From Coemansia sp. RSA 487 (Eukaryota > Kickxellomycota > Kickxellomycetes > Kickxellales > Kickxellaceae), in contig JANBRJ010000010.1 in assembly GCA_027577595.1 (NCBI GenBank), positions 220,109 to 284,108 of the forward strand: a DNA stretch of 64,000 nt, written 5' to 3'. Numbering within the stretch: position 1 is the stretch's first letter; each line of letters starts with the position of its first letter. The position numbers were made by a program, and so were the translations under genes. Below the pieces are notes generated by a model, which did no database searches, was not told where the DNA came from, and saw nothing but the letters and a program-made list of their open reading frames with translations. Of the stretch, positions 2,578 through 28,476 are shown piece by piece.

Positions 2578-3591
2578 CTAAACACTAAACGCCTTTTCGG
2601 GCAACGCAAGCTTGCTCAGGCGCGCAGCAAGGCCCTGGAGTTGGACCAGGGTTTGCAGCCCATCGACGATACGCATATGAGTGACACCGATCTCTCGAAC
2701 AAACTTGAGCTTTTTGTCCTCATCGAGCTCGTCATAGATCTTGACAACACGGAACACAGACGTGATGATATCGACTGCCGAGTATCCCTGAGACCACAGC
2801 AAGCTGATGCAGGCGACAGCGTCATCAACCTCGCCCTTGCTGCAACTGGCAAGCATCTTGCGGATGACGACTGGGTGCGGCTGGTCGCACACGCGGAAGA
2901 CGTTGTCAGGCGAGACAAGCCCAAAGCCACTGGCCGTCGACTGCAGGTTGTTTATGGCCTGGCGCATATCGCCGTCGGCCGAAAAGGCAACGGCCTCAAG
3001 CCCCTCGGGTGTGTACTCGACCGACTCGAAGCGGCAGATCTCGACGAGTCTGCGTAGAACCTGGTCGTTTTGCAGTTTTCCAAAGCGCAGGATCGCGCAG
3101 CGGCTCTGGATGGGCTCAATGATCTTATCCGACAGGTTGCACGCCAGCGCAAAGCGTGTGGTGTTTGAGTATATTTCCATCGTCCGGCGCAGTGCTTGCT
3201 GCGCTCCCGGAGTCATGCTGTCGGCCTCGTCGAGGATGATGATCTTGTGCCGCCCGGATGGCAAGTTGACCTTCTTTTGCGCAAAGGACTTGATGCGGTT
3301 GCGCACCACCTCGATGCCTCGGTCGTCCGACGCGTTCAGTTCCAACACGGCTTCTTTGTACGTCGGCCCCAGAAGCTTGTGCGCCAGACACAGGATACTC
3401 GTTGTCTTGCCGATTCCCGGCGCTCCAGCAAGGATGATATTTGGTATGTTTCCGCTCATTGCGATCACATTGAGTCGGTCGACTGTCTCCTGATTCCCGA
3501 CAACGTCCTTCAGCTCTGTCGGCCGGTACTTTTCTACCCACGGAAGCGAGCTGTCGCTGCTAGAAGCTGATTTCGACGTCGACGAAGCCAT
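2578..3591 (-). CDS. RFC4: Replication factor C small subunit, Rfc4 type (human RFC2/RFC40)
   Basis: This is a 337-residue subunit of the RFC clamp loader, which opens and loads PCNA at primer-template junctions in the nucleus. Visible motifs are the RFC N-terminal box WVEKYRP (18-24), Walker [10 protein letters not shown] (56-64), Walker B with DEAD (121-124), the arginine-finger SRC box (163-165) and the [12 protein letters not shown] sensor-2 helix. Length matches the family. The best remembered match is S. cerevisiae Rfc4 rather than Rfc2, Rfc3 or Rfc5, because of the VGN-E-T-I/V-DRL start and the GLVSPDNVF segment after the sensor helix. No intron is needed. It lies about 400 bases from NTE1 and 230 bases from the next gene, all on the minus strand. 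Confidence 0.96.
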
Positions 3592-3821
3592 TGTTTATAA
3601 TTATTGCTTTTGTGTGTTGCTGTAAGGAGACTTTTGTGTTTTGTAATTTCGTGTTTGAGAGATAAAGAGTAAATACTTTGGTGACCAAGAAAGAAGAAAG
3701 TGTTTAACGTGCTTGATTTATTGTCAATATAATCACAAAAAATTAGTGTAGCTGCGCAAAAACTAGCAAAAAAAATAGGGCTGGTCATTTTTCCCCCAAG
3801 AATAAACGTATTATGCTTTTG

Positions 3822-4733
3822 TTAATTCGAAAGCCTTTGGCATTTGCTGATGGCTTTTGCGCACGACGAGATAGCCTTGGATATGCGAACAATATCCTTT
3901 GGACACGTTGTTTCCAAAAGTCGGGCAGAGAGATCAGCGATCTTCTCATTCAGCGCATCGATTGCCTCCTGAACCGCCGATGAGGAGACGACGGTGCTTT
4001 CGGTAGCGCGTTTCTGTGGCTGCTGCTTCTGACTCTTGCTTACCGTTGTTGTTGTCTCTGGCTCTTGTATTACTAAAGCGTCCTTCTTGGGCTTTGCAGA
4101 TACTGGCGCTTTGGTGACTGCCTGCGAGGTGGAGGCGACGGCAGCAGGAGCTTCAGATGGTTGGCTTTGGTCTATAGCTCCGTATTTTTTGATATAGTGG
4201 TTTTCGTACATGTAGCGCTGCTCGCAAATCACACAGAACTGCACCCGGTCCCTGTCTTCAACTAGCGGAACGCTGTAGCATTGTTTGTTAGGACACGGCC
4301 GGTCAATCATCTTCCACCCTTGCAAAAGTCGCTTGGCAATAAGGTGGCTCGCTCGATCGCTCTGCTCACGTCTTTCTCTGCGCAGCCGTGCCTCCTCCTC
4401 CTCATCGTCTTTGTCAGCCGTAGATGATGCGTAGTTGGAAAGAGCTGGTGGCTTTTCTGCCTCGGTGCTCATCTTTTCGTCAGTTTTGCACGTAGCATCA
4501 CTGTCTTTGGCAGACTCTGTATTTGCGGCACTAGCCTTGATCTCTCCCTCCGTCATCTCGTCGGGGAACAGCTCTTTAGCGTCATGCCACACGCACTTGG
4601 TGTCACCTGTTGCTGGGTTACGCATAAGCGGCGAGCAGCATCCGTCAACGGAACACAGGTCGGCAAGCATTGGCCAGCGCTTCAACATCAGCTTGGACAT
4701 GCGCCCGGTTACTATATCAAGTCTCGAGCTCAT
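3822..4733 (-). CDS. ZNRD2/SSSCA1 (autoantigen p27) family zinc protein
   Basis: This 303-residue protein contains two copies of the Auto_anti-p27 zinc motif. Copy one runs from about residue 11 to 50 (MLKRWPMLAD, Cys27, Cys32, Cys47). Copy two runs from about residue 128 to 176 (LLQGWKMIDRPCP, Cys147, Cys152, Cys167, Cys170) and keeps a complete C-x4-C...C-x2-C set, while copy one has lost its fourth cysteine (VWH instead of a CxxC end). The linker is acidic and charged, and the C-terminal third has a Ser/Thr/Lys-rich linker followed by a helical tail near 255-300. The human relative binds tankyrase; the molecular role in fungi is not established. Family assignment is confident, function is not. 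Confidence 0.85.
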   Translation of the reverse strand: MSSRLDIVTGRMSKLMLKRWPMLADLCSVDGCCSPLMRNPATGDTKCVWHDAKELFPDEMTEGEIKASAANTESAKDSDATCKTDEKMSTEAEKPPALSNYASSTADKDDEEEEARLRRERREQSDRASHLIAKRLLQGWKMIDRPCPNKQCYSVPLVEDRDRVQFCVICEQRYMYENHYIKKYGAIDQSQPSEAPAAVASTSQAVTKAPVSAKPKKDALVIQEPETTTTVSKSQKQQPQKRATESTVVSSSAVQEAIDALNEKIADLSARLLETTCPKDIVRISKAISSCAKAISKCQRLSN

Positions 4734-24525: not shown

Positions 24526-25998
24526 TTATTCGGTTGATCTGTAATCGTCGTTTACCTGCACTGTGATCCAGCCGCGATTATCTATCCACCCTTCACTATA
24601 CAAGGCAATTAGCTCACGATCCCAAGCATTCACGACCTGCTCGGTTGCACTAACACCAGGGGTTGAAGTGCTTGTAAAGACGCTTTGGTGTTTGAGCGAA
24701 TTATAAAGTTCATCGTCAGAAGCACGTTTCCAAATCCGTTGTCTCATAACCACTGCTCCGTTCCCAATAGAAACTCCGATATCAATATCCCTTTTCCACT
24801 ATTTGTTCGAGTGCCAGCTGGGCTTGCACAATCGCATAGCTGCTATTCCGGTAATGCTCCTTGGCTATATGCTTAAGTTCGAAGGTAACTGTCACCGACC
24901 CATCCTTCTCTACCAATTGCTCTGGTATAATGAGTCACCAACCAAATGCTCTAATACCGCTCCGTGCTTCGTTGCTCGACACAATGCTCGCATGCCTATT
25001 CCCTGGCTGCCCGAGACTGTCTGGAGTCTCCGCATGTATTAGCTTGGACAAAACAAATGTCCTGAAGAAATTGGCATTTGTCGCCTCATAGGAAAGCCAC
25101 TTTGTAGTCGTATGATACTGAAGGACGGTGTTGAATTTCTCATAAATGGTCTGTAAATTGCCTTCGTACAGGCTGGTCAGCAGCAAACCGCGTTCTTGGG
25201 GTTGGATTGTCGGGGCTTCTGTGTTGAACATTGCCGTTGGATGTATTTCCTTTCTGCAACTCTTCTCCATCTATTGCATCGTGCTCGAACAAGTGGAAGT
25301 GCTTGTACAAAAATCCACAATGTTTACGAAATATACCAACAGCATCGATCATACAAGTTTTCCAACTGGCAACAGTAGAAATATTGTCGACTGTTTCGCA
25401 AACTTTGGCAGATTGATTGTGCAATATATCTGCGCTAGTAGACATCTGTTGGCCCTCCGTCTTTCGAATCCATTCAGAGGCAGAATCTGCGACGCGCATG
25501 GTAAGCTTTCTTTCAAACTGGTCAAGAGTTCTGCCTTTGATATCCTAATTTAAAACATATTGTCTCGCGCAACCCACATTAGCTTTGGACCGTGGTACAA
25601 TCTATATGCTATGCACGAGTGAGTTTGCTCGCTTAAATGCATGCGTACCTTAAAGTCCAGGCGGATGACAGGGTATTTGCAAAAGTTCCCGTCAAAGAAC
25701 TCTTGTTCCTCGCTAATCAAGGCACTCCCAAAGATTGTTCTTCATTAATTCGACCCTCAACAGGAGCATCTTCATTATTCGCCACACTAAAGAACTCTTC
25801 AAGGATAGACAAGTTGAAGGTCTTTCCAAAACGCCTTGGCAAGCATATGCACAGATACAGACTGCTGGACTCCAATAAAGCCTTGCACATTAGGGTCTTG
25901 TCGACAATAGCTCTGTTTTCGCATGCCATGACTCTAAACTCCGAGCCAGTTCGGGTTTTCTTTCCGGTAACCTTTGACGGAGCTATATAAGAAAACAT
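24526..25998 (-). pseudogene. Broken AAA-ATPase-like / PD-(D/E)XK nuclease (DUF1703-type) gene
   Basis: Reading the minus strand, the 5' piece (ATG at 25996-25998) holds the domain start with AIVDKTLMCKALLE and the degenerate Walker A CLPRRFGKTFNLSILEEFF. The frame shifts near 25715; the next frame gives EEQEFFDGNFCKYPVIRLDF, the following conserved block. The middle is riddled with stops and shifts but shows family-like patches. Near 24885-24790 another frame reads SVTVTFELKHIAKEHY then AQLALEQIVEKGY, the nuclease-domain ELK catalytic motif and the A-x-EQI-x-EKGY helix of these proteins. A last open piece to 24526 starts DIGVSIGNGAVVM after one more shift. So both domains are present in order but disabled. 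Such genes are multicopy and mobile-like in several fungi; their function is unknown. Confidence 0.7.
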
Positions 25999-26096
25999 AA
26001 CAATTTTCAAAAGGGACAGCGTCCTGTTCTAGAACTAGGATTCCTAGAACTAAGATTTGCCACGGCTATAACCTTGGCTGAGTTTCGTGGTGGTTG

Positions 26097-26750
26097 TTAT
26101 TTGTTTGTCCTCGCCGTCTTCTTTGCCACAATTGCTTTCCTTTTCTTCTTGGGTTGCTGTTCATCAGTGGTGGCAACGGCTGCAGGCTGACTGCGACAGA
26201 AGTGCTCTGGAGTCTCACCGTGGTCGCAAAGGCCATGAAAAATATGCCTGAGGTTGAGAACAGCTGCGATATCTCGGTTGTACATGCGTGAACGAGGAGT
26301 CAAAACACCATCTATTTCCACGGAACCCATCCATAGTTTGCTGGTGCACGCAAGGAGACCGTGGCAGAGCACTTCTTTCATCTTCTCTCGTTGGTAGGGG
26401 CGGGAGTTGGGCACTTTCAGGAACTTCTTGAAAGTGCTGGTGAGGCAGCTGGGTTCTTATTCAAGATAGAAGTTGTATTTCTTGAGATTGTTAGGTTCCA
26501 TTAGGATCAATGTTAACTAACCATATTGAAAGCACATACAGAGACCGAGAAGCCAATCCATTTTAGCGTGGAATGATAAATGTGTGGCGAACAGCTTTCT
26601 CCACAAAGCCTAGTTTGCGCTTCTTGCTTCCAAGCGCAAATATAACGCCAACTGACGCAAGCGACTTTTCCTTGGATCGCAAAATGCGCTATCGCCACCG
26701 CAAACCTTTCGCCATTCAACATGTATACATCCTTCTTATTCGGCACAATT
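26097..26750 (-). pseudogene. C-terminal remnant of a TnpB/Fanzor-like RuvC nuclease (putative)
   Basis: The best-preserved part, 26414-26097, reads NSRPYQREKMKEVLCHGLLA, then about 20 residues later YNRDIAAVLNLRHI. The N-R-D-x-x-A-x-x-N element is the RuvC-III signature of TnpB and its eukaryotic Fanzor relatives, and the patch before it sits where their zinc ribbon lies, although most of the expected cysteines are gone. The tail ends in a basic PKKKRK-like stretch that could be a nuclear signal. Upstream, another frame (about 26700-26560) reads SVGVIFALGSKKRKLGFVEK, resembling the RuvC-II strand region, then meets stops and a frame change. The N-terminal two thirds are absent. I take it as a decayed copy; the assignment depends mainly on one motif. 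Confidence 0.45.
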
Positions 26751-27063
26751 ATTTTTGGACAGTGCTGTATGTTCTGTGCAACAGGGAAAACTGAAAACTA
26801 CCGTAACAGCGGGACATTGAGTGGGAAGGGAGGAAGGGCAATTCGAAGTGTTCCGCGTACAAGAATTGTGTTCAACCCTGCAACACAAATGTTTTTGATC
26901 GTGGTTCAGCAAAAAGACAGCAAGCAATGCAGTTGAAATGTTTTACAGAACGAATAATCTGGGATTTCCATAGTTTACAAGTCTTAGCACACTTAACTTT
27001 CCAAATTGGTATTATTTGAGAGGAGTAGGTAGGTTTACCTGCTGTCGTGCCAAGAAAAAAAGA
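26751..27063. other. Spacer between the nuclease remnant and URC4
   Basis: About 310 bases with no supported gene. No terminal repeats that would delimit a mobile element were recognised by eye. Confidence 0.4.
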
Positions 27064-28476
27064 TCAGAACAGCGTGCCGTCAGAGATAATGTTGATGGGC
27101 GGATCCTTTGTGTCGCTGCGCAGCGACGCAGCTATTTCGCGACCAGCCTTCCATGTACCACCCTCGAGCACACGGCTCAGGAACATGGGTGGCAGCTGTG
27201 AGTCGTCGAGCCCGCTCATTAGGCGCACGCGAGAGGCTACCAAGTCCAGCAGAATGACGGTCATTGCGCGCCATTCGACGATGACTGGATCGCTTCCGTC
27301 GAACTGCGGAACGTTATTCTTTGCTGGTGCGCGTTCCCGGTCGCTGGCATTAAGCGTCAGAACACCCATGTCAACAAACAGCCCGCCATTGCGGTACTCC
27401 GGCAGCCCCGTCAGGCGGTCGGTGCCTGTCACCGTGAACTTGCCCAATCGCGTGATGACTTCCAGTAGCGACCACGTCAGCCACTGCGACAGCTTGTGGA
27501 ATGGCACCAGGCTGTGCGTGCCCAGAATAAGCGGCTGTGACGGCGCCGCCTTACCAACACTAGCACCATCGATGCTGCCGCTGCTGTCGCGCCTTCCCGC
27601 AGGGTGTCCTGGGCTCTCATCAACAGGCGGCTCAATGCCAAGCGTATCGCACTGCCATACATCGCCCAGCGGCACGCCGTCCAGCTTGGTGCGGCCTGCC
27701 GGCCACACAGGCGCCAGTCCATCGACGATGACTTCCCAAATGTCGTCCACCGAGACGGTGCGCGGCGCCTCAGCACAGCCCGTCAAGTAATCGAGCATGA
27801 ACCCCGGCCGTGCTGGGTGGCTGTTGCACGCACATATGCCGCCAAAGAACCCTGGCTCCGCACGCAAAGCCTTCCCCAGGTTCCGCAGCAACTGCGCGCG
27901 GTTCGCGCACCCTAGAAGAGGGTTCGCTTCGCTGACCTGGAACCCATCAAGCAGTGCCTGATCGGTGAACGACTCCAGCGCAGGCGCATCCACTTGGAAC
28001 GCATTGGACGGGGAGCTCGAAAACATCCCGCGTTCGAACATACGCAGCGCAGCCAAACCGAGCCCCTCTGTGCGTGCCGATTCGCCGAACTCGCGGTCCT
28101 GGAACCGCCACTCGCTACCGGCTCCTGCATCCACGAGCACGGACACCATAAACAGGTCGATGATGCGACGCGCGCACTCCCATTCGCTAATGTCGGCTTC
28201 ACGCCACCTAGCAACGTGCTCGCTGACCAGATCCCGCGTACCGGTCTCAGTTTTGATGCAGTATGAGCGCCAACGTCCGTGCATCGGCACCTTGTCAATG
28301 CTGCCGTAGTCCCGGTCGATCAGCGAGTACACGTACTCCACCACAGCGTCCACTTTTCCTTCGTCATACGCAAAGTGTCGCAACTTTCCCCTCTGCGCCT
28401 GCTTGAACACCTTGTTCGATTGCTCGCGAACTGCTTGCAGCGACTTTAGATACTTGATGTTGTGGTTTACTGCCAT
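27064..28476 (-). CDS. URC4: Uracil catabolism protein 4 (DUF1688)
   Basis: This 470-residue protein matches the DUF1688 family defined by Urc4 of Lachancea kluyveri, one of the proteins needed to use uracil as nitrogen source by the URC pathway; its exact reaction is not settled. Conserved patches visible are HGRWRSYCIK, a region rich in family identities at FMVSVLVDAGAGSEWRFQD followed by EGLGLAALRMFERGMFSS, the block GFQVSEANPLLGCANRAQLL, and the C-terminal LEGGTWKAGREIAASLRSD with IISDGTLF. No targeting signal or intron. A Ser/Gly-rich insert around residues 290-315 looks lineage-specific. The gene is full length and intact although it borders the decayed island. Confidence 0.85.
   Translation of the reverse strand: MAVNHNIKYLKSLQAVREQSNKVFKQAQRGKLRHFAYDEGKVDAVVEYVYSLIDRDYGSIDKVPMHGRWRSYCIKTETGTRDLVSEHVARWREADISEWECARRIIDLFMVSVLVDAGAGSEWRFQDREFGESARTEGLGLAALRMFERGMFSSSPSNAFQVDAPALESFTDQALLDGFQVSEANPLLGCANRAQLLRNLGKALRAEPGFFGGICACNSHPARPGFMLDYLTGCAEAPRTVSVDDIWEVIVDGLAPVWPAGRTKLDGVPLGDVWQCDTLGIEPPVDESPGHPAGRRDSSGSIDGASVGKAAPSQPLILGTHSLVPFHKLSQWLTWSLLEVITRLGKFTVTGTDRLTGLPEYRNGGLFVDMGVLTLNASDRERAPAKNNVPQFDGSDPVIVEWRAMTVILLDLVASRVRLMSGLDDSQLPPMFLSRVLEGGTWKAGREIAASLRSDTKDPPINIISDGTLF

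Follow-up and report, generated by a model that had tools for sequence, protein, structure and literature searches.

Within a 64,000-nucleotide stretch of the Coemansia sp. RSA 487 genome (the window), the minus-strand segment 26757–26008 is very probably a dead, non-autonomous ghost or MITE-like copy of a Tc1/mariner-type transposon that carries Fanzor1, and its 3' block is probably an omega-RNA scaffold. Fanzor is found in eukaryotes and is related to the nucleases TnpB and CRISPR-Cas12. DNA homology to other copies covers 26008–26757, close to the 26097–26750 range marked in a first-pass annotation of the letters alone, which had read the segment as a decayed Fanzor-like copy. Its features and the adjoining gene are as follows.

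26450–26757, minus strand: left end, consisting of the terminal inverted repeat (TIR) and subterminal region, ~308 bp; present at no fewer than 40 listed places and in inverted relation to the right TIRs of relatives.
26121–26456, minus strand: C-terminal Fanzor1 piece (residues ~447–558) in which the zinc ribbon is damaged and the RuvC-III NRD is kept; alignments, 77% amino acid identity to the copy on contig C60.
26008–26096, minus strand: stop codon, then a structured, conserved 3' block that is a candidate omega-RNA scaffold; block alignment, conservation and pairing counts.
24782–26007, minus strand: decayed AAA-ATPase-like neighbour gene, outside the element and directly against its truncated right side; PF09820, E 2.6e-9 on the frame 25717–26028.

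The NRD patch that drew attention to the segment, YNRDIAAVLNLRHI, is real, and its signal is far above chance. It sits in a minus-strand open frame (26097–26456) of 119 codons with no internal stops, which in alignments continues unbroken as far as the position at which its relatives stop. We searched the genome (17.8 Mb, 184 contigs, the window lying on contig C10) with a 559-amino acid open frame from contig C60. Among the 86 matches was the window piece (26121–26456, C10:246229–246564, minus strand), which aligns with residues 447–558 of the C60 Fanzor1 at 77% identity (E 2.8e-53). A Pfam scan of the patch gave no useful match (best E 0.1, to an unrelated family), so the Fanzor identity rests on relatives and not on a profile. 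Pfam used alone would have overlooked the piece. As had been noted, the RuvC-I region is gone from it, and RuvC-II is absent too. What persists of the Fanzor1 residues is the NRD and two of the four zinc-ribbon cysteines, the first being missing and the last a tryptophan. Judged by these residues, the window copy is a relic and no nuclease, inert by itself.

The relic is of the Fanzor1 type, as judged by homology to relatives in the genome and to solved Fanzor1 proteins. Full-length, intact-looking relatives elsewhere in the genome, for which the first-pass annotation had proposed a search, were retrieved. The full-length C60 protein is homologous to experimentally characterized Fanzor1 proteins, those of Parasitella parasitica (E 2.4e-71) and Spizellomyces punctatus (E 2.8e-39). 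The former (PpFz1; 9cf0–9cf3, as described in PMC11423790) is the closest solved protein and has the same RuvC and zinc-ribbon motifs. Aligned with the solved proteins are the C60 RuvC-I (MDPGRQD), the glutamate preceding the zinc ribbon (IDEFRTS), the C4 zinc ribbon and RuvC-III (YNRDLAA); the catalytic D (DPGR), E (DEFRTS) and D (NRD) and the C4 zinc ribbon are all present in full-length relatives. Between two aligned blocks, family A, to which the C60 protein belongs, has ~12 residues versus ~110 in PpFz1, from which we infer absence of the RuvC-insertion (FRI) domain.

Six family A copies, including the query, span the whole 559-amino acid query stop-free, the other five being 82–86% identical to it. 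Measured from an upstream ATG, the frames are 728–733 amino acids long in three of these (L011, L012 and L014) and 719, 718 and 565 in the remaining three owing to N-terminal differences. A second family, B, is ~41–43% identical to A, and seven of its eight near full-length matches are stop-free. More divergent Fanzor copies occur on contigs C57, C29, C18 and C7. The divergent Fanzor-like copy at C57:5555–8647 (L008) has a 748-amino acid open frame with WNCD at the RuvC-III position versus YNRD in family A. Copies matching just the C-terminus or N-terminus were considered as true truncations, and this was rejected because many are assembly breaks at contig ends. Many contigs stop inside family A Fanzor copies (e.g., L039, L043, L055 and L056). 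Because the assembly breaks at the Fanzor repeat, Fanzor copy counts are lower bounds.

DNA homology gives the order of a family A element as left TIR (~130 bp), DDE_3 transposase, Fanzor1, structured 3' block and right TIR. Two elements that could be followed from end to end (L013 and L010) are ~4 kb long. The transposase frame within the element (E 1e-22) has the DDE character of Tc1/mariner, and terminal inverted repeats were found in family A elements, whose outer end reads CTGTRTTTTGCAAAAC.... DDE_3 matches occur at 51 places in the genome, several of them upstream of family A copies; the C60 element, some other family A elements and the window copy have no transposase. We claim no family A element in which transposase and Fanzor are both shown intact. 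In one element (L041), pieces of what is presumably a Gypsy-type reverse transcriptase lie between the DDE_3 frame and Fanzor (~2900–4400), which would fit insertion of a retroelement. Many left ends are flanked by TA and many right ends by CA, and a clean TA duplication is not evident. The window copy has the left TIR and lacks the right one, so that no target-site duplication can be demonstrated there. We also considered whether Fanzor formed a cassette of its own inside a mariner element, and rejected this since the left junctions differ between copies and resemble ordinary deletions.

The first-pass annotation had suggested looking for a guide RNA beside intact copies, and a candidate scaffold does follow the Fanzor stop. 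In family A this block ends ...GATGCTGTCCCTTTTGCAG; the window copy keeps most of it, being cut ~4 nt short of the usual ...TTTTGCAG end, where DNA homology ceases at 26008. Across 26 family A copies (nine duplicate, truncated or odd-ended rows were omitted), majority-base identity in 15-nt steps is 0.94–0.98 in three of five steps of the block, and 0.86 and 0.66 in the other two, which contain a 15-nt repeat of varying number. Steps flanking the block score 0.89–0.93 and some further ones 0.75–0.81; the excess in the block is thus modest. Pairing is well kept: in 28 family A sequences including the window, helix 1 (GCC AA GGT TATA GCC GC GGC) has 166 of 168 cells paired and the last helix 154 of 168. 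The family B block is longer, with 181 of 189 cells paired in five sequences; shifted versions give no more than 88 of 190. The structure was derived from the same five sequences that were scored, which favours high pairing. The last stem of the block (TGCCA/TGGCA) closes exactly at the block end.

The block might instead be a structured UTR that serves termination or transposase binding, with no role as a guide scaffold. This is suggested by the modest excess in conservation, by Rfam, which gave no match up to E 1 for the three loci scanned (L012, L037 and L054), and by the position of the family A block, which unlike that of described Fanzor loci ends 193–294 bp inside the element (~235 bp; 20 copies). 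The right borders of family B argue against it. We located 21 family B places and read 13 right ends. Among the 11 with no extra stretch beyond the block, eight (on C66, C20, C71, C4, C23, C81, C101 and C54) end exactly at GGCA (GACA on C23) and are followed by unrelated flank, and the other three (C44, C114 and C162) diverge within a few nucleotides of that point. Borders at the block end are as predicted for a scaffold end followed by a flank-derived guide. Also against the UTR reading are the conserved stem closing at the 3' end of the family B block, and a position and length like those of Fanzor1 omega-RNAs in the loci described in PMC10432273. We therefore consider a UTR with no guide function unlikely, and the block is probably, as a candidate from its position, pairing and borders, an omega-RNA scaffold. 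An extra shared stretch of up to ~105 nt lies past the family B scaffold end in five copies by coordinates (C113, C65, C140, C77 and C37); it was read in L037 (3301–3405) and L076 (L076r).

The region behind the block differs in family A. Most copies that were read continue past the block with GTARGTGCTC... and then the right TIR, while two (L019 and L034) stop exactly at the block end. Thus, behind the scaffold end (...TTTTGCA) most copies have one and the same element sequence, GTARGTGCTCRAAYGAGAGC..., found at 88 places within three mismatches. The family A guide might accordingly be encoded by the element rather than taken from the flank, Fanzor in all copies loading the same constant guide; were this so, nuclease-bearing and ghost copies would load Fanzor with an identical guide. 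A stronger version has splicing at CAG/GTARGT join the scaffold to the flank. We regard the proposal, in either version, as improbable, more so than a UTR, and 3' splicing (a CAG/GTARGT donor, a TACTAAT site and scarce AG) failed its controls. From the TACTAAT-like site to the right end, AG occurs 12 times in 3014 nt (20 copies) versus 107 expected from base composition. In a control comparison, left-end TIRs read in the same sense have four AG in 1242 nt (14 left ends) versus 10 in 2246 nt (25 right ends), counts for which L039, L043 and L052 were reassigned by hand to right ends (script output, six in 1489 and eight in 1999). AG is scarce in left TIRs too, so this scarcity is a TIR property and no evidence of a splice acceptor. 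The supposed donor GT is kept no better than its neighbours, accounting for three of 28 single mismatches versus ~2.9 expected over 19 specified positions.

Relative to the C60 element, window DNA homology falls into two blocks (26757–26550 and 26448–26008). It is unbroken from 26757 to 26008 with the copy on contig C103 (L054; 85.6% over 752 bp), which is collinear with the window through the junction and hence has the same internal deletion. That the window instead holds a plain degraded full-length Fanzor gene, its N-terminal half persisting but mutated beyond recognition, with no specific deletion involved, would fit the nonsynonymous changes accumulated in the patch. This is very hard to sustain given the collinearity with C103 and given that the DNA upstream of the patch is an element left end, whose 308 bp are 82–86% identical to those at 39 other listed places (at least 40 with the window). 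The description as a decayed copy therefore stands as to a relic and fails as to mere decay: the window piece derives from the element by internal deletion, bears a TIR, is non-autonomous and shares its junction with C103.

Left end and scaffold are ~730 bp apart in the window (by subtraction); among the 40 listed left ends, seven show a distance of 704–782 bp (C114, C24, C27, C77, C9, C103 and C49:42632). Ghost sequence was read at the window and C103, where the junction was found; the six further loci are grouped with them by similar spacing alone, as are C40, C18 and C23, in which a guide-region match lies ~710–880 bp from the left end (by subtraction). At other listed left ends the scaffold lies 411 bp away (C19) or 3.6–5.2 kb away (six ends). 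No scaffold match was found within 6.5 kb at 26 of the 40, with a search pattern unable to detect diverged scaffolds such as the window's. Among six short derivatives that hold both TIRs in ~515–656 bp, five have no scaffold match; together with most of the listed left ends, these indicate that scaffold retention is no rule. As for scaffold-free empty copies, 18 of the 88 guide-region places have no scaffold-end match within three mismatches, at least two of these (C13 and C21) have a diverged scaffold, and no empty copy is established. For family B, a search for the left TIR with the 28-nt right-end pattern (up to three mismatches) returned 13 places, all known Fanzor 3' ends, and 401 bases near the presumed left end on C54 showed nothing clear.

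On the reading of the window copy as a ghost, the deletion would have taken out the sequence from the end of the left ~300 bp to Fanzor codon ~449, and the ghost would have multiplied through transposase supplied in trans by full elements. The window ghost would then have inserted beside the AAA-ATPase-like gene, after which its right TIR was lost and its sequence drifted. By extension from published Fanzor work, Fanzor in live copies would bind its own 3' RNA and cut DNA matching the scaffold-adjacent sequence, and this cutting may help the element to keep or regain its site.

Elements of this kind are already known, in the accounts drawn on here, both as Fanzor1 in mariner elements (2013; PMC3627910) and as omega-RNA ghosts (2023; PMC10432273). 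Bao and Jurka (2013; PMC3627910), in the portion that concerns us, described Fanzor1 within TIR elements, some containing a mariner-type transposase and some not. TIRs and putative TA duplications are given for the fungal SPu-1 element; a mariner transposase accompanies Fanzor1 in PGv-1 (virus) and PUl-1 (Pythium), and in none of the fungal elements named in that portion. Family A is alike in having Fanzor1 inside a TIR element with or without transposase. In contrast to that account, the genome studied here holds two divergent families, and CA is often found at the right flank. For Spizellomyces punctatus, the relevant section of Saito et al. (2023; PMC10432273) described many copies of a ghost Spu-1 with both ends and an omega-RNA-like region and no Fanzor frame, proposed that Fanzor may aid ghost elements in trans, and reported no transposase within Spu-1 repeats. 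Unlike the ghosts in that section, those in the window and on C103 retain part of the Fanzor frame; unlike Spu-1 as given there, the family A scaffold is internal rather than at the element end, and full elements carry transposase. In Coemansia sp. RSA 487, one family in one genome comprises elements with transposase and Fanzor, elements with Fanzor alone and scaffold-bearing ghosts, next to a family B with clean scaffold ends. With this mix, a single organism offers a test of what Fanzor contributes to its transposon.

The open Fanzor copies appear to be constrained. The mean dN/dS is 0.28 in family A (range 0.21–0.39; 15 pairs, six copies) and 0.24 in family B (0.17–0.33; 10 pairs, five copies, four read in part), in copies picked for open frames, a choice that biases the value downward. 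Synonymous distances among open-frame copies are 0.18–0.33. These values suggest purifying selection, the protein having been selected while the elements multiplied. The mean dN is 0.122 between the window piece and intact copies versus 0.066 among intact copies, with dS alike (0.315 and 0.308), which shows that the window piece is under weaker constraint. The C103 ghost piece has a just slightly raised dN (0.085; ratio 0.27). That a host gene adopted the Fanzor C-terminus as a domesticated fragment, perhaps with the AAA-ATPase-like neighbour, would account for a 119-codon frame open to the usual stop and for a dN/dS against intact copies (0.39, a ratio that includes the copies' shared past) lower than neutral, but deserves next to no credence, the least of any reading considered, as the frame has no start codon at its beginning, the zinc ribbon is damaged, dN is raised and, by coordinates, every other AAA-ATPase-like match is more than 5 kb from any Fanzor match.

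The same coordinates led us to reject the AAA-ATPase-like gene as a part of the element. Frames down to 24782 (minus strand), which have no Pfam match, we take to be the rest of this gene. Its family (PF09820) has 21 matching rows at ~18 loci in the genome and may be cargo of another mariner-like family. At three of the ~18 loci (C43:20994–23082, C50:71262–73297 and C10:186796–188714) a DDE_3 match is no more than 1.5 kb away. On the other side of the ghost, the window encodes a DUF1688 protein (27064–28476, minus strand; PF07958, E 2.3e-144), an ordinary neighbour gene.
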